This document shows, piece by piece, positions 9,586-26,516 of a stretch of 64,000 nucleotides of DNA. The position numbers and the translations under genes are program-made. Under the pieces are notes generated by a model. That model searched no databases, was not told the DNA's origin, and saw only the letters and a list, made by a program, of their open reading frames with translations. Positions within the stretch are counted from its first letter, which is position 1. Each line of letters begins with the position of its first letter. Source of the DNA: Desulfurivibrio dismutans (GTDB lineage Bacteria > Desulfobacterota > Desulfobulbia > Desulfobulbales > Desulfurivibrionaceae); NCBI RefSeq assembly GCF_029210385.1, contig NZ_JARGDQ010000004.1:62001-126000 (forward strand). The letters are read 5' to 3'.

Positions 9586-10287
9586 TTAGTAGCCATAGTT
9601 GCGCAGGTATATCACCTTGGGCTTGGTGCCCTGTTCCGGCATTCTCACCTTGCTGGGGTAGCGGGCGATCAACTCGTGGATCGGATCGACGGGGTCATCA
9701 AGATCGCCCAGCAGCCGTGCGCCGGCGGGACAGGCTTCGACACATCTGGGCTGCTGGCCCCGGGCCAGGCGGTGGGAACAGAAAGTACATTTTTCCACCA
9801 GGCCTTTTTTTCGGATCCCCAGATAATTTTGATTCAGCGCCGGGTTGTAGGTGGGAATGGGCGGCGCTCCCTCCATTCTGGAAGTCAGTTCCCGGCCCGA
9901 CGAGGTTCCCCCGGGCACCAGAGCCTGGTCATCCTTAAACATGGCGTGGGGCTCGTAACGGTTGAAGCTGATGGCGTCGTAAGGACAGGCCACCATGCAG
10001 GCCCGGCACCCCACGCAGCGTTTGGGGTTATGGAGAGTCAGCCCCGTATCCCGGCGTTTGTGCATGGCCCTGGTGGGACATACCCGTGTGCAGGGGGCAT
10101 TGTCGCAATGGTTGCACTGGTTAAGCTGCACCTCATAGCTAACATTGGGGAACTTGCCGGTGGTTTTGGTCTCATAATTGAGCCATTTTATGCCCTCGGT
10201 TACGTTGTTTTCGATTTTGCAGGCAATCAGGCAGGCGCCGCAGCCCATACATTTTTTCAGATCGTGGGTCATCGCATAGTTAGTCAC
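9586..10287 (-). CDS. Four-cluster ferredoxin subunit of PsrABC/PhsABC-type molybdoenzyme
   Basis: The 233-residue electron-transfer subunit carries four cysteine groups of the DmsB/PsrB/PhsB type: CMGCGACLIAC, CNHCDNAPCTRVC, CVGCRACMVAC and CTFC with a later CVEAC. It would shuttle electrons between the membrane anchor and the molybdenum subunit. The start is a GTG at 10287 with a strong GGGGAGGTGAT site upstream. It lies 16 bases after the catalytic gene, so it is translated from the same operon. No Tat signal is visible; such subunits usually travel with the catalytic partner. Confidence 0.92.
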   Translation of the reverse strand: MTNYAMTHDLKKCMGCGACLIACKIENNVTEGIKWLNYETKTTGKFPNVSYEVQLNQCNHCDNAPCTRVCPTRAMHKRRDTGLTLHNPKRCVGCRACMVACPYDAISFNRYEPHAMFKDDQALVPGGTSSGRELTSRMEGAPPIPTYNPALNQNYLGIRKKGLVEKCTFCSHRLARGQQPRCVEACPAGARLLGDLDDPVDPIHELIARYPSKVRMPEQGTKPKVIYLRNYGY

Positions 10288-10303
10288 GGTAAATCACCTC
10301 CCC

Positions 10304-12841
10304 TTATATCATTTCAATTCTAACCCGACAGAACCCGCCGTTGCGGGCGGTGGAGCCGGACAGGTGATCCCAGTCGGCATGCATCAGGGTGTTGTTGTTG
10401 CCGCCCCGTGGGGTCTTGAGAAACTCCTTGGCGGCGTGCCGACCCATGGCCCAGTGGCCCTGGCCGAAGTATTTTTGCGCCACTCCCGGCCGGACCCCTT
10501 CCCAGACTTTAAGCATACAGGTGATGGGCTGGCCGCTGGCGGAAGTGACCCGCACCTGGGATCCATCCCGCAGGTTCAGCCGCTGGGCGTCCACCGGGTT
10601 GATTTTGATGACGTCCTCCTGGTCCAGGTCGCCGGGATCCAGGCCCTTGAATTCATAATACCAAGAGCAGTTCTGTGAACGGCCTTCCCGGTTGAAGCGA
10701 GACTTGGCATCAATCAGCATCAGCGGAAATTGGCGGGGATCACCTTCGCGTCGCGGCTGGTCGTAATGGGGGATAAAGGCCTTCTCGCCCCGGGCCGAGT
10801 ACCTGCAGGCCTCCATGACCCGGTCGACACTGACCCCGTGGCGGTCGGCATGGCCCTGCAGCCCGGCCTTCAGGGTTTCGCTGTAAAATTCGAACTTGCC
10901 GGTTTCGCCGCCGAATTTGCCGCCCCAGCGCTGCTTGTAGGGATATTTGATGGAGTTCCAGACCCCCTTCTCGACAAAGTCCTGCCAGCCGTTGAGGGTG
11001 TCGCCCTGCTTTTCGCCGGTCGGGTCCCAAATATTTTTGGTATAGGACTTCAGGGCGAAAATCGCGAACTCTTCGCCGCTGGTGGGGGCAGCCCCCGTTT
11101 CCGGATCCTTGTAGGTCTTATAGTAATTCAGCAGATTGGGAAAACCCTTGTCCGCCAGTTTTTCGGCGATCATCCAGGTGATCTCGGTTTCGTCGTTTTT
11201 AACGTCAAAGATCCGCTCGTGTACCGGCTGCTGAATGGAAATATGGGTGTACATCCTGGTCTTCTGGCTGGTATAAGCCCAGCGTTCCATCATGTGCTGG
11301 GCCACCGGCAGCACCAGATCGGAGAAGTGGGACATTTCCCCGTAATGGGTGGTGATATGGGCCGAGAAGGGGATCTTGGCCATGGCCCGGTCCCAGCGAT
11401 CGGTGCCGGTGCAGGAGAAATTGAGGTTGGCGAAGTAGATCAGCGCCACCTTGATGTCGTAAGGATCTTCGGCCAGTACGGCGTCGGCCACCCGGTTGGT
11501 GTTCACCCCGCTGCCGGAGCGGCCCCGGGCCAGGTTGGGCCACTCAAGACGACCGCGCTGGTCGATTTTTTCATGTTTGGTGCCTTCTTTGGCCAGGTCA
11601 TCCTGGAAATCGGCCATGGAGTTGGGACCGTGTTTGGGGCCGCCGGGGGAGCCGCCGGTATGGCCGCCGAAGCTGTCCGGGGCGCCCACTAGACCGGACA
11701 GGGCCTGGATGGCCAGGCTGGCATAAGAACCGTTGGGCCACATGGTGGGGCCGTTCCAGACACAGACCCTCGGCGCGGCTTCCGCCATGTCCCGGGCCAC
11801 TTTGTAGATCTGTTCACGGGCTACCCCGCAGACCTGCTCGGCCCACTCCGGGGTCCGATCCTTGACCTCCAGGTTCCACCATTTCACCAGCCCGTAGGTT
11901 TCCTTTTCCTCAAAGGTGTTTTCATCCACCGGGCGACCGGCCACAAAATGGTTTTCGCCATCGGTGAAGTCCCCGACAAAGGGTTTGTACCACAGCCCTT
12001 CGGTGAGGATTACGTGGGCCATGGCCAGGGCCAGGGCGCCGTCTTCACCGGGGATCACCGGCAGCCAGTCGTCGGCCTTGGCGCCGGTGGTGGAGAGCCG
12101 GGGGTCGACGCAGGCGATCTTGCCCTTTTCCTGGATGCGTCCCAGGGCGTGAATGCTGAAAGGTACCAGGCGGTTGGAAGAGACCGGGTCGCAACCCCAG
12201 GCCAGCAGGTAGCGGGTATTAAGCAGGTCGTAGTCCCGGTAGCCCCAGTTGCGCTCGGTGAAGTAGGCCCCGACCTTTTCCGCCTCGGCACAGATGGAAC
12301 TGTGGGAGATGTTGTTGGGGGAGCCGATGATTTTGGGAAAATGATCATAAAGCAGGTGGTGCATGTGCGAGTAACGTCCCCGCATTACCCATAACTTGTG
12401 AGATTCTTTATTCTGGCGCAACTCGATGAGCTGGTCGGCGATCATGTCCGCCGCCTCGTCCCAGGAGATGGGGACAAAACGGGGATCCTCGTTGCGGCCC
12501 TTTCGGGGGTTGGTCCGTTTCATCGGGGTTTTGACCCGGTCGGGATCGTAAACCTGCTGGAGCACCAACTGCCCCCGCGGGCAGAGGTTGCCCACCCCGG
12601 TCTTGGCGTTGGGGTTGCCCCGCACCCGGATGCCGCGGCCGTTTAAGACGTAAATCTGGGCCGAGCACCAGGTGGTGCAGCCCTGACAGGAAGTACTGAC
12701 CCAGCGGCCGCCCTCCTGGGTGTCGTTGGGATAGGTGTCCAGCGCCAGAGCCTTGAGGGTGGGCAGGGAATTGCCGATGGCGGCGGCTCCGGCGGCCAGC
12801 GCCGATGCTTTTAGAACGTTTCTGCGTGTCGTCTTAATCAT
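10304..12841 (-). CDS. Molybdopterin oxidoreductase catalytic subunit, PsrA/PhsA-like (polysulfide, thiosulfate or related reductase)
   Basis: An 845-residue Tat-exported enzyme of the complex iron-sulfur molybdoenzyme family. The N-terminus has a Tat motif (TTRRNVLKAS). A 4Fe-4S site follows with Cys52, Cys55, Cys59 and Cys87 (CQGCTTWC ... NLCPRG). Cys184 in HSSICAEAEKVG sits where the molybdenum ligand is expected. The C-terminal molybdopterin dinucleotide domain starts near DQEDVIKINPVDAQRLNLRD. The ATG at 12841 has GGGAGG upstream; the longer open frame overlaps the preceding gene. Substrate cannot be assigned from sequence: polysulfide, thiosulfate, tetrathionate and arsenate enzymes are related. 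Sulfur compounds are favoured by the neighbouring rhodanese and PhnD-like sensor. Confidence 0.88.
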   Translation of the reverse strand: MIKTTRRNVLKASALAAGAAAIGNSLPTLKALALDTYPNDTQEGGRWVSTSCQGCTTWCSAQIYVLNGRGIRVRGNPNAKTGVGNLCPRGQLVLQQVYDPDRVKTPMKRTNPRKGRNEDPRFVPISWDEAADMIADQLIELRQNKESHKLWVMRGRYSHMHHLLYDHFPKIIGSPNNISHSSICAEAEKVGAYFTERNWGYRDYDLLNTRYLLAWGCDPVSSNRLVPFSIHALGRIQEKGKIACVDPRLSTTGAKADDWLPVIPGEDGALALAMAHVILTEGLWYKPFVGDFTDGENHFVAGRPVDENTFEEKETYGLVKWWNLEVKDRTPEWAEQVCGVAREQIYKVARDMAEAAPRVCVWNGPTMWPNGSYASLAIQALSGLVGAPDSFGGHTGGSPGGPKHGPNSMADFQDDLAKEGTKHEKIDQRGRLEWPNLARGRSGSGVNTNRVADAVLAEDPYDIKVALIYFANLNFSCTGTDRWDRAMAKIPFSAHITTHYGEMSHFSDLVLPVAQHMMERWAYTSQKTRMYTHISIQQPVHERIFDVKNDETEITWMIAEKLADKGFPNLLNYYKTYKDPETGAAPTSGEEFAIFALKSYTKNIWDPTGEKQGDTLNGWQDFVEKGVWNSIKYPYKQRWGGKFGGETGKFEFYSETLKAGLQGHADRHGVSVDRVMEACRYSARGEKAFIPHYDQPRREGDPRQFPLMLIDAKSRFNREGRSQNCSWYYEFKGLDPGDLDQEDVIKINPVDAQRLNLRDGSQVRVTSASGQPITCMLKVWEGVRPGVAQKYFGQGHWAMGRHAAKEFLKTPRGGNNNTLMHADWDHLSGSTARNGGFCRVRIEMI

Positions 12842-12864
12842 TGTATCTAATACCTCCCTCCAGA

Positions 12865-13734
12865 TTATGCCATCTGACCGGCGAAAAGGATTACATGCCG
12901 CAACAGGTAACCGCCCAACAGGCTGCATACCGCCGCTATCACTGTTAACTGCATGGTGCCGCGTCCCTGCATCTCTATCCATGCAATCCGGAAGGGGGCC
13001 ACCAGACCCAGCAGGACAAAGCCAACCCAGAATGTTACCGCGTAGCCGCCCAGCACCACGTTCCGCATGGCCACTTCACCACCGGGAGCCCAGGCCCAGG
13101 CCATGATCATCAGGGCGACCACGATGAGCTTGGTGCCGTTCAGGAAAAAATCGCATTTGGACCAGGTATTAATGGCCTCGTGGGAGTCTTCGGGGGCGGT
13201 GTAGCATGCCACCAGGGTAGTAATGGCGATACCGGTAGAAAAACCGGAGACGACGAAAAGTACTGGCAGGATCGAGGTGGCCCAGATCACGTTAACGGCC
13301 GCCTGCTGGAGCAGCAGGGCGGTGTAAACCGCCACCATGTTGGCCAGAGCAATCCCGCCCCAGGCCAGAAAATTCTGCAGCCCTTCGGGTTTTTTGTAGG
13401 GCTCGTTTTGCCGCGCCCACAGCAGGTAAGCGTAAACGATGCAGACGGGAGTGTAAATGCCCAGCAGAAAGACACCGATGGACATTACGGAAGAGGGATT
13501 GGGATAAACCATCAGCTTCCAGAAGGTGTAGGGCATGCCCAGGTCATAAATCAGCAGAATCAGACCCAGGATAATCGGTACAGGTGCGATGTAGGCAGCG
13601 ATGCGGGCAAAATGGCGGTACTTCTCACCCCCGTAAAGGTCTGAAAACGCCGCCACGGCAAACGCGCCAGCGGATAGTCCACCGAAAAACAGGTAGATGG
13701 CGATCCATATCGGCCAAGCAATAAAGTCTTCCAC
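12865..13734 (-). CDS. NrfD/PsrC-type integral membrane quinone-interacting subunit
   Basis: From a GTG at 13734 this is a 289-residue protein with about eight membrane helices, starting VEDFIAWPIWIAIYLFFGGL, the usual NrfD-family opening. It anchors the complex and exchanges electrons with menaquinol. AAGGAGA lies 7 bases before this GTG. A longer start (GTG at 13833) would add 33 polar residues and is less likely. It is first in the operon, 23 bases before the catalytic gene, giving the order anchor-catalytic-FeS. Confidence 0.88.
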   Translation of the reverse strand: MEDFIAWPIWIAIYLFFGGLSAGAFAVAAFSDLYGGEKYRHFARIAAYIAPVPIILGLILLIYDLGMPYTFWKLMVYPNPSSVMSIGVFLLGIYTPVCIVYAYLLWARQNEPYKKPEGLQNFLAWGGIALANMVAVYTALLLQQAAVNVIWATSILPVLFVVSGFSTGIAITTLVACYTAPEDSHEAINTWSKCDFFLNGTKLIVVALMIMAWAWAPGGEVAMRNVVLGGYAVTFWVGFVLLGLVAPFRIAWIEMQGRGTMQLTVIAAVCSLLGGYLLRHVILFAGQMA

Positions 13735-13948
13735 GGTCTTCTCTCCTTTATTGATGTTGTTGATTGTCGTCCCCGGTCTGACGTTTATTAGCCGGATAAC
13801 GCGAAATGCACGATTGCCTGTTTCTCCATTCACCTCCCTGATGTTTGAAGTTGTTTTTTACGTTGATGGCGGTTTGAGGTAAATATCCAGCCACCACCGA
13901 GTTGCCCGTTTGAGATTCCCATGACAGCCATCTTAGAATGGAAAGGCC

Positions 13949-17198: not shown

Positions 17199-17606
17199 TT
17201 AGCGGACGCTGATGGGGTAACGTTTCTGTTGCCACTCGGGAAACCCCGCCCGGTAGGTAAAAACATTTTTGTAGCCGGCCTGTTGCGCCGCACCTGCGGC
17301 AGCTGGAGCCAGGCCTCAGTCGTAGCCCCGGCAGTAAAAGACCACCGGAGTTTCCTTGTTTTCCGGCAGGTGCGCGGCGATTTGCTCAAATTGGCTGGAA
17401 GGGATGTTGATGGCGCCGCTGATGTGGCCCTGGCGGTATTCCTGGGCGGTTCTGGTGTCCACCACCACGATTTTACGGGGCTGGTCAAGCCGCTGTTTCA
17501 ACTCTTCGGTGGTCAGGTCGCTGATCCAGGCCCGGGCGCCGGCGGTGGCGGCCAGCAGCAGGCAGCCCAGGCAGATCAGCAGGGTGGTAAAAATTTTACA
17601 ACGCAT
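17199..17606 (-). CDS. Predicted selenocysteine-containing periplasmic rhodanese (TGA at 17316-17318 read as Sec)
   Basis: From an ATG at 17606 (AGGAG 10 bases upstream) the frame gives a signal peptide (about 1-26), then a rhodanese domain (VVVDTRTAQEYRQGHISGAI) to the loop VVFYCRGYD at residue 96, then TGA, then continues in the same frame for 38 codons: GLAPAAAGAAQQAGYKNVF, YRAGFPEWQQKRYP, ending TAA at 17199. The part after TGA is a perfect rhodanese C-terminus, so without readthrough the domain is broken. In the periplasmic CxGxxC rhodanese subgroup a second cysteine follows the catalytic one by five positions; here Cys92 is followed by TGA at 97. With Sec the protein is 135 residues. 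selA is in the window. The alternative is a nonsense mutation. Confidence 0.82.
17277..17318 (-). promoter_or_regulatory. Predicted bacterial SECIS element after the TGA codon
   Basis: Directly after the TGA the mRNA can fold with an outer stem GGCCUG/CAGGCC and an inner stem GCCGC/GCGGC closing an AGGU loop. The loop begins 21 bases after UGA, inside the range known for bacterial SECIS, and AGGU resembles the AGGUCU loop of E. coli fdhF that SelB binds. Confidence 0.72.
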
Positions 17607-17826
17607 TGCTTTCTTGCTCCTCTGTTTTGAATGTGGCTGGCGGTTTGCCGTGCCATGGTTTAAGCTTGCGCCAAGCTCCCTTGGGTGACACGGCGACAGC
17701 CGCCAAGATTGGGATAACTGCCAGGATGGCAAAAGGGAGCCGGCAGAATGCTATTCAATCAGGCTGCGCATGTCAATCGGAAAGGGACCGGGGCGGGGGT
17801 GTTGGGACCGCCGGAGGAGGGAGCGG

Positions 17827-24979: not shown

Positions 24980-25037
24980 CGGCGGATGAGGGTTGCGTGG
25001 CCGGGGCCGCGCAACCAAAACACCTAATGGAGAGCGC

Positions 25038-26516
25038 ATGACCAGATCGCCTTCTGCTTCTGCCGCGGCGGATTCCCGGGCCCTTCTGCGGGCCATCCCC
25101 AAAGTTGACGAAGCGGCAGCCTGGCTGGCAGCGGAGGTGGAAGTCGCTGCGGCGGCTGGAGAGATGCAGCCCGTCGTGCCCTCCCGGCTGCTTAAAAATG
25201 TGGTACGTGAACTGCTCGATGATTACCGCCGACGGATCCTGGCCGGGGAGCTGCTTACCCCGGCGGCCCTGACCCGGGATCAACTGCTGCCAAGCTTAAA
25301 AAAACGGCTAACCGCCCGGCTGCAGCCCAATTTTCGCCCACTGATCAACGCCACCGGCGTGGTGGTGCATACCAACCTCGGTCGCTCTCTGCTGCCGGAG
25401 GAGGCCACCGCCAACCTGATGGCAGTGGCCGCCCGCTACTCCAACCTGGAATATGACCTGCAAACCGGCCGCCGGGGCAGCCGCTACTCCCTGGTGGAGG
25501 ATCTGCTCACCGAACTGACCGGGGCGGAAGCGGCGCTGGTGGTCAATAACAACGCCGCAGCGGTGCTGCTGGTGTTGCAAACCCTGGCCGCCGGCCGCGA
25601 AGTGGTCGTTTCCCGGGGGCAGTTGGTGGAAATCGGTGGCTCTTTCCGGATCCCTGAAGTCATGGCCCGTAGCGGCGCCCGCCTGGTGGAGGTGGGGGCC
25701 ACCAACCGCACCCACCGGCGCGATTACGAGCAGGCCATCGGTGAGGAAACGGCCCTGCTACTCAAAGTTCACACCAGCAACTACCGGATCAGCGGTTTTA
25801 CCTCCGAGGTGGCGGCAGAAGAGCTGGTAGAATTGGCCCGTGGCTACCGCTTGCCGGTGATGGAAGACCTGGGCAGCGGTTCCCTGCTGGATTTTTCACG
25901 TTATGGCCTGACCAGGGAGCCCACCGTCCAGGAGGTGCTGGCGGCCGGGGTCGATGTGGTCACCTTCAGCGGCGATAAACTGCTGGGCGGTCCCCAGGCC
26001 GGACTGATTCTGGGCCGCCGGGAACTCATTGAACAGATCAAGAAAAACCCCCTGAACCGGGCGCTGAGGATCGACAAGTTCACCCTGGCCGCCCTGGAGT
26101 CGGTGTTGCGTCTTTATTTTGACGAAGAGCAGGCCTGCCGGCAGATTCCCACCCTGCGGATGCTCACCGCTTCTTATGAAGAGATTCGTCGCCGGGCGCA
26201 ACGGCTGCGCCGCCGGTTAAAAGACCTGCCTGTCGCTCGCTGCGAACTGGAATTGGTTCGGGTAAACTCCCTGGTCGGCGGCGGTGCTCTGCCGGAAATG
26301 CCCCTGCCCAGTTGCGCTCTGGCTTTGAAGCCGCGGCAGATAAGCCTCCATCAACTGGAAAAGGCGCTGCGCGCCGCCCCGGTACCGGTGATCGGCCGCA
26401 CTGAAGATGATCGGCTGCTGCTCGATCTCCGTACCGTGGCCGATAACGAAGTGGTCGAACTGGCGGCTGTTCTGCAAGAGGTGCTGGTCGCCGGGAGTAA
26501 CGAACAGGTCGCGTAG
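25038..26516 (+). CDS. selA: L-seryl-tRNA(Sec) selenium transferase (selenocysteine synthase)
   Basis: A 492-residue PLP enzyme converting seryl-tRNA(Sec) to selenocysteinyl-tRNA(Sec) with selenophosphate. Family features are PLINATGVVVHTNLGRSLLP, NNNAAAVLLVL, the GATNRTHRRDYEQAI stretch, VMEDLGSGS, and the PLP lysine Lys314 in TFSGDKLLGGPQAG. The ATG at 25038 with GGAG just upstream is preferred over the longer open frame. selB, selC and selD are not found in the window, so the rest of the pathway must lie elsewhere. Its presence supports reading the in-frame TGA of the rhodanese at 17316 as selenocysteine. Confidence 0.95.
   Translation: MTRSPSASAAADSRALLRAIPKVDEAAAWLAAEVEVAAAAGEMQPVVPSRLLKNVVRELLDDYRRRILAGELLTPAALTRDQLLPSLKKRLTARLQPNFRPLINATGVVVHTNLGRSLLPEEATANLMAVAARYSNLEYDLQTGRRGSRYSLVEDLLTELTGAEAALVVNNNAAAVLLVLQTLAAGREVVVSRGQLVEIGGSFRIPEVMARSGARLVEVGATNRTHRRDYEQAIGEETALLLKVHTSNYRISGFTSEVAAEELVELARGYRLPVMEDLGSGSLLDFSRYGLTREPTVQEVLAAGVDVVTFSGDKLLGGPQAGLILGRRELIEQIKKNPLNRALRIDKFTLAALESVLRLYFDEEQACRQIPTLRMLTASYEEIRRRAQRLRRRLKDLPVARCELELVRVNSLVGGGALPEMPLPSCALALKPRQISLHQLEKALRAAPVPVIGRTEDDRLLLDLRTVADNEVVELAAVLQEVLVAGSNEQVA

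Follow-up and report, generated by a model that had tools for sequence, protein, structure and literature searches.

An apparently truncated rhodanese gene of Desulfurivibrio dismutans very probably encodes a full-length, selenium-containing protein, as judged from comparative sequence analysis. The gene lies in a stretch of 64,000 nucleotides, referred to here as the window, on a 330,047-base contig of the host genome assembly (2,838,417 bases in 33 contigs). We consider it highly probable that this is an intact selenoprotein gene in which the UGA of codon 97 would be read as selenocysteine (Sec) through SelB, tRNA-Sec and a SECIS-like hairpin; the identity of the residue as Sec is close to certain. 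We further propose that the product would act as a Cys92-Sec97 sulfur carrier. The reading as an intact selenoprotein gene is based on the frame itself, the Sec machinery of the host, the conservation of the site and a hairpin positioned after the UGA.

The coding sequence occupies positions 17199..17606 of the minus strand, running from an ATG at 17606-17604, preceded by a Shine-Dalgarno-like GAGGAG (17617..17622, minus strand), to a TAA at 17201-17199. An earlier note on this DNA had described a rhodanese frame that was interrupted once by TGA and then resumed in frame, and this was what we found: a single TGA at 17318-17316 (17316..17318, minus strand) and, with TGA translated as U, a product of 135 residues (MRCKIF...VVFYCRGYD-U-GLAPAAAGAAQQAGYKNVFTYRAGFPEWQQKRYPISVR). 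The active-site loop motif of this product, CRGYDU, has CxxxxU spacing and places U97 five residues past the catalytic Cys92, the spacing that the note had given. Standard ORF calling ended the gene at the TGA, after residue 96, also as noted before. The read-through product scored 82.4 bits against the Pfam Rhodanese family PF00581 (gathering threshold 22.2) and the 96 residues upstream of the TGA alone scored 57.2 bits, while the 38-residue tail alone had no Pfam Rhodanese score, indicating that the tail completes the rhodanese domain. A hydrophobic, signal-like stretch was visible at the N-terminus and the protein is apparently exported. In the text of PMC12142623, RS05685 is given as a secreted sulfur-transferase, along with the Arr-like genes RS05665-05655 and two regulators, RS05675-05670. 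This gene order points to RS05685 as the probable locus of the window gene.

Some rhodanese match was identified in 26 of the 27 genomes of the host's family. The best non-self matches, with one TGA each, were in G002 (77%), in the Desulfobulbaceae genome UBA5628 (G026; 63%) and in the Desulfobulbaceae genome Del10 (G005; 56%). Among 80 loci kept from a genome scan, the best four were those of Desulfobulbaceae UBA5628, Del10, LH_M19 and Pelovirga terrestris (G204), all of which had U at the position, as did the fifth-best, from Nitrospiraceae UBA6898. Of the 41 loci inspected among these 80, a simple motif search gave U at the Sec position for 5, Cys for 6, Arg for 11, Gln for 7 and some other residue for 2; for the other 10 it read no residue. 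The Nitrospiraceae locus (L096, position 2902) is a CRGAGU rhodanese from outside the Desulfobacterota, with a hairpin after its TGA. In close relatives this position was TGA or Cys, where a lack of both would have told against the earlier proposal; more distant rhodaneses often had Arg or Gln there. In the same-genus genome G003, only a remnant was present, from which the active-site part was missing. This remnant (L053, about 2650-2792; G003:C180) consists of a signal-like start fused to the C-terminal end, and either natural decay or assembly collapse could have produced it.

The 38 codons after the TGA had dN/dS values of 0.06-0.40 in 14 of 15 pairs, with the fifteenth undefined and some dS values saturated, which indicated that these codons evolve as protein. 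Differences after the TGA were commonest at third codon positions in all 15 pairs. The TGA is retained in the orthologues of G002, G026, G005, LH_M19 and Pelovirga terrestris, which shows that it arose neither by chance nonsense mutation nor as a sequencing error confined to one genome. A sequencing error or a recent nonsense mutation, either of which would have told against the proposal, is also ruled out by a TGA kept throughout a six-row clade with purifying selection downstream of it.

To determine how widely the site occurs, an in-frame FYCxGxxU pattern was scanned over 395 genomes of the phylum Desulfobacterota. The pattern was matched in 40 of these genomes (host included), from 28 of 246 genera, compared with 6 of 395 genomes for an out-of-frame background pattern that had 6 rather than 7 unspecified bases after GG. 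We read 31 matches in 30 of the 40 matched genomes, of which 27 (in 26 genomes) were in rhodanese frames and four (L086, L087, L090 and L091) were elsewhere. By eye, some of these proteins have a single domain, others (L066, L082) have two, and others again (L070, L075, L088) are multi-rhodanese proteins whose N-terminal part differs; Pfam identified three rhodanese stretches in each of L054, L055 and L201. At L074 (G337), a single frame carries two successive CxGxxU rhodanese domains, each with its own TGA (positions 1527 and 1842), and the product is a candidate double selenoprotein.

A SECIS-like hairpin was present after the TGA. Its apical part (17286..17301, minus strand; RNA UGCCGC-AGGU-GCGGCG) is a 6-pair stem with the loop AGGU, which starts 21 nt past the UGA. 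The inner five pairs of the hairpin were retained within the longer stem of the predicted minimum-energy fold that encloses it (17273..17315, minus strand; -23.4 kcal/mol), a fold whose energy was ordinary relative to shuffles (z -1.21). For comparison across loci, we assembled a Sec set (45 distinct pattern matches, 41 of which were kept after the same four non-rhodanese loci had been dropped) and a Cys set (22 matches, 20 of which were kept by a crude check, and 19 after the non-rhodanese L146 was dropped by eye). A hairpin was scored when its stem had 5 or more pairs, G was among the first three loop bases and the loop began 20-23 nt past the UGA. With registers that were fixed after the synonymous-shuffle results had been seen, such a hairpin occurred in 40 of 41 Sec rhodanese domains and 3 of 19 Cys homologues, many of the 41 being close relatives and hence not 41 independent events. 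When the register was slid by -8 to +11 nt (excluding 0), the hairpin was found in only 0 to 5 of the 41 Sec domains. Stem nt 18-27 were paired in 9/9 cases as CG, TA or GC, and nt 22-26 in 24/24 as GT, AT or CG; these paired changes indicate that the stem sequences vary yet the pairing persists.

Synonymous shuffles of the window copy (L020) gave a stem P of 0.31 and an energy z of -0.02, neither significant alone. The median stem P was 0.10 for the 41 Sec domains versus 0.40 for the Cys domains, and the two groups differed by Mann-Whitney test in both stem strength (P 2e-5) and energy z (P 0.004). As single sequences are weak against shuffles, the hairpin evidence lies in its fixed position across sequences. 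A search of the window for Rfam SECIS families returned none at gathering or at E<=10; three weak matches at E<=10 were to unrelated families on the opposite strand.

The host genome also encodes what is needed to make Sec. The nearby selA that the earlier note had pointed to, for L-seryl-tRNA(Sec) selenium transferase, was confirmed at 24993..26516 on the plus strand, about 7.4 kb away (NCBIfam TIGR00474, 637.8 bits versus a cut-off of 267.9). The genes for SelB, tRNA-Sec (selC) and SelD, which the note had proposed to look for, were all identified: a tRNA-Sec with anticodon TCA (73.2 bits), SelB (358.3 bits; cut-off 242.25) and SelD (382.6 bits; cut-off 125). With tRNA-Sec, SelA, SelB and SelD all present, the host has the capacity to make Sec. 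The SelD gene (locus L017, G000:C12:203584-204513) was itself read through one in-frame TGA, and the host SelD is probably a selenoprotein. Of 52 genomes surveyed, 36 had a Sec-rhodanese that was read, and tRNA-Sec was above the cut-off in 33 of them (missing in G016, G025 and G381); it was also above the cut-off in 13 of the 16 others (not in G001, G461 and G389), so that its presence indicates capacity only and is a poor discriminator.

The earlier note had seen a Cys-to-Sec pairing at this position, and the wider comparison bore this out, with Cys at the matching position in 33 of 77 collected domains. A quick tree of these domains, 44 with Sec and 33 with Cys, was built on 110 columns, with the trait position masked as X, after leaving out the duplicates L020, L021, L051, L052, L077, L092, L093 and L095, as well as L206-L208 and 5 non-rhodanese loci. 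Its resolution was poor: of 74 inner branches, 31 were left open. The window clade, with Sec in 6 of its 6 rows, had an SH-aLRT support of 99. Parsimony required a minimum of 11 Cys/Sec changes, at least 3 of which were forced by well-supported branches; shuffled traits gave a mean of 25.2 changes and in 0 of 500 shuffles was the number as low as 11. On these alignments, Cys and Sec have replaced each other repeatedly in the rhodaneses of sulfur-cycling bacteria. The clearest case is a pair of paralogous triple rhodaneses in the host, which are reversed relative to one another: in L054 the first domain carries Cys and the second Sec, and in L055 the first carries Sec and the second Cys. In G003 (L042), both domains have Cys. 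A double ExtH-like gene and the gene for an ExtI porin (540.7 bits) lie about 5 kb from L054 (462-1667; G000:C23).

AlphaFold modelled the window protein as a rhodanese with a mean pLDDT of 90.6 (block means of 95-98 over residues 31-130, and a mean of 97 over residues 91-100), and the best PDB match was 6mxv (E 1.2e-8). In the model, C92-U97 forms the loop joining the strand 88-91 to the helix 99-109. Cys92 was invariant across 22 aligned rows, and among the 31 loci with a residue read at the place of Sec97, 11 had Arg, i.e., the usual CxxGxR loop. Drawing on general knowledge of rhodaneses and of thiol/selenol chemistry, we propose that the product would be exported and fold as one rhodanese domain with the active-site loop Cys92-Arg-Gly-Tyr-Asp-Sec97. 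Cys92 would accept sulfane sulfur from polysulfide or thiosulfate to form a persulfide. Sec97, which stands where the Arg closes the usual CxxGxR loop, may then serve as a second nucleophile that either frees sulfide via a selenenylsulfide or passes the sulfur on. The protein would in effect carry sulfur and contain its own redox partner, and we infer persulfide transfer or reduction by the Cys/Sec pair.

A different role for the recoded residue is unlikely, yet of all the alternatives it deserves the most weight. The UGA might be recoded with Sec97 having no redox function, and being instead structural or binding a metal or oxyanion, for example in the handling of selenite, tellurite or arsenate. 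The ExtH-/ExtI-like genes about 5 kb from L054, a triple rhodanese with the same motif, are consistent with such a role, as the text of PMC5877670 ties the Ext cluster of Geobacter to selenite and tellurite reduction, and an ArrA-like Mo enzyme is encoded near the window gene. However, Cys and Sec have exchanged repeatedly at a site whose spacing from the invariant Cys does not change, as redox pairs show, and ArrCAB-like genes had no match in the 19-20 kb around the orthologues L050 and L052. We favor the Cys92-Sec97 redox pair over a non-redox Sec97.

The genomic neighbors bear on whether this putative sulfur carrier acts by itself. On the same strand, the window gene adjoins PhnD-like, kinase, regulator and ArrCAB-like genes. 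The ArrB/ArrA/NrfD-like molybdoenzyme genes lie at 9586-13833 of the window (minus strand), with ArrA at 1108.5 bits, under the NCBIfam cut-off of 1600. Their shared strand and adjacency would suit a rhodanese that is a dedicated part of this molybdoenzyme cluster, and the text of PMC12142623 reports that the ArrCAB-like Mo-enzyme proteins were raised on nitrate and suggests nitrate as the substrate. Such a dedicated role is nevertheless improbable. Around the orthologues L050 (TorD-rhodanese-M90) and L052 (NaPi-rhodanese-M90), nothing matched the Arr genes, the kinase, the regulator or PhnD, while L051, L094 and L095 had other neighbors and matched 0 of the 18 window proteins compared. L050 keeps the chromosomal place of the window gene (ETF-QO, NaPi ... 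TorD, rhodanese, M90, M20, GNAT). A link to the ArrCAB-like cluster as a general rule was rejected, since the neighbors differ among the orthologues. Based on this lack of conserved neighbors, the window protein is probably a stand-alone sulfurtransferase and not a subunit of the Arr-like enzyme.

Least credible of all is that the TGA is a true stop, leaving a 96-residue truncated protein or pseudogene and a relic frame downstream: standard ORF calling does terminate there, the truncated piece by itself still scores as a rhodanese and the congener G003 has a decayed copy, but the frame and TGA are retained in 6/6 rows of the orthologous clade, the dN/dS values after the TGA are low in 14 of 15 pairs, and the higher score of the full domain, the positioned hairpin and the complete Sec machinery all argue against it.

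Read as a selenoprotein, the window protein joins rhodanese selenoproteins that are already known, to which it adds a single-domain member in its own clade; rhodaneses with several domains carry Sec at this site too. Forms 1-3 of these proteins reportedly have their likely source in a 2004 paper on the prokaryotic selenoproteome. Rhodanese selenoproteins are listed in publications of 2005 (PMC1088965), 2008 (PMC2398784), 2022 (PMC9312934) and 2026 (PMC13188914). A word search of the main text of PMC13188914 did not find 'CxxxxU', and neither the window protein nor the triple rhodaneses L054 and L055 reached the cut-off of any NCBIfam selenoprotein model.

The table of PMC13188914 gives the 'form 1' rhodanese-like selenoprotein as PF00581 with the motif UxxS (WP_010941598.1), a rhodanese domain with Sec, as in the window protein. 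In the G089 family (L201, L202), which we have taken as Geobacteraceae from an ExtH match of 482.5 bits, the same site reads YFCAGVTUALS, i.e., it has both the +5 Sec and UxxS. As this motif stands at +5 in these Geobacter-like rhodaneses, the published form 1 of Geobacter probably uses the same +5 Sec site, although the identity of the site with that of WP_010941598.1, presumably a Geobacter sulfurreducens protein, is itself inferred. The window protein differs from form 1 in having one domain, UxxP after the Sec and a clade of its own.

By score, the top NCBIfam match of the window protein was TsoB (NF045694; rhodanese/DsbD fusion-like) at 79.2 bits, far under the cut-off of 805. TsoB is likewise a rhodanese that carries Sec, with a spacing of five between its two reactive residues, but according to the table of PMC13188914 it is a long fusion with Sec at both places (UxxxxU), whereas the window protein has Cys at the first place, one domain and 135 aa. 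The TsoB model has a length of 572. ExtH was rejected as the identity of the window protein, as NF040901 was absent from its 14 NCBIfam matches. NF041203 (form 3, CxU; model length 126) resembles the window protein in being a single rhodanese domain with a loop Cys and Sec, but its Sec is two residues after the Cys rather than five, and the window protein scored 61.6 bits against it, under the cut-off of 115. The CxGxxC rhodaneses of Desulfobacterota and others (L024, L029, L097, L176) have the same domain with Cys at the place of Sec, and several carry, by eye, a second rhodanese-like part. Sud, the periplasmic polysulfide carrier for Psr in Wolinella, has a single Cys and is not known to contain Sec. 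The Sud structure (PDB 1qxn, deposited as 'sulfide dehydrogenase') was a sequence match to the profile, with an E of 2.6e-7.

The other host triple rhodanese, L055 (800-2062; G000:C28; also L206:11300-12562), has its in-frame TGA in domain 1 (FYCGGPTU), followed by a like hairpin, and its G002 counterpart reads FYCGGLAU. The genes upstream of L055 encode a PhsA-like molybdoenzyme (NF012032, 482.7 bits, under the cut-off of 694), a DsrO/TtrB-like Fe-S protein and an NrfD (Pfam, 86.6 bits), and the gene downstream encodes a triheme cytochrome protein. The set looks like a polysulfide-reductase (Psr) operon. In the text of PMC12142623, RS06465 is described as a lipoprotein with three rhodanese domains in the Psr operon, with expression strongly raised in sulfur disproportionation. 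From its make-up, L055 would be RS06465, and the three domains in the published description may mean that the record reads through the TGA already. From its estimated place (near 491 kb in G002), L055 would also match the D. alkaliphilus rhodanese DaAHT2_0417.

The window gene adds a conserved selenoprotein whose Sec is one that annotation is likely to overlook, and the Sec/Cys exchange at loop position +5 recurs among the rhodaneses of Desulfobacterota. Proteomics of the organism has been published, although a word search of the main text of PMC12142623 turned up no mention of a proteomics deposition. The main texts of three Desulfurivibrio papers that treat rhodaneses as sulfur-handling contained, by word search, no selenocysteine or selenoprotein, and 'selen' appeared there only for growth-medium additions. 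We speculate, with more doubt than conviction, that the CxGxxU/C rhodaneses form a redox class of their own among the sulfurtransferases. In this class the catalytic persulfide would be resolved by Sec or Cys, and a single domain would take up sulfane sulfur and also reduce it to sulfide. We speculate likewise that sulfur respiration and disproportionation in Desulfurivibrio are selenium-dependent. If this reading is true, the selenium dependence would follow from the presence of such a protein inside the Desulfurivibrio polysulfide-reductase operon. If the rhodanese of the Psr operon needs selenium, the selenium demand of sulfur disproportionation would become testable.
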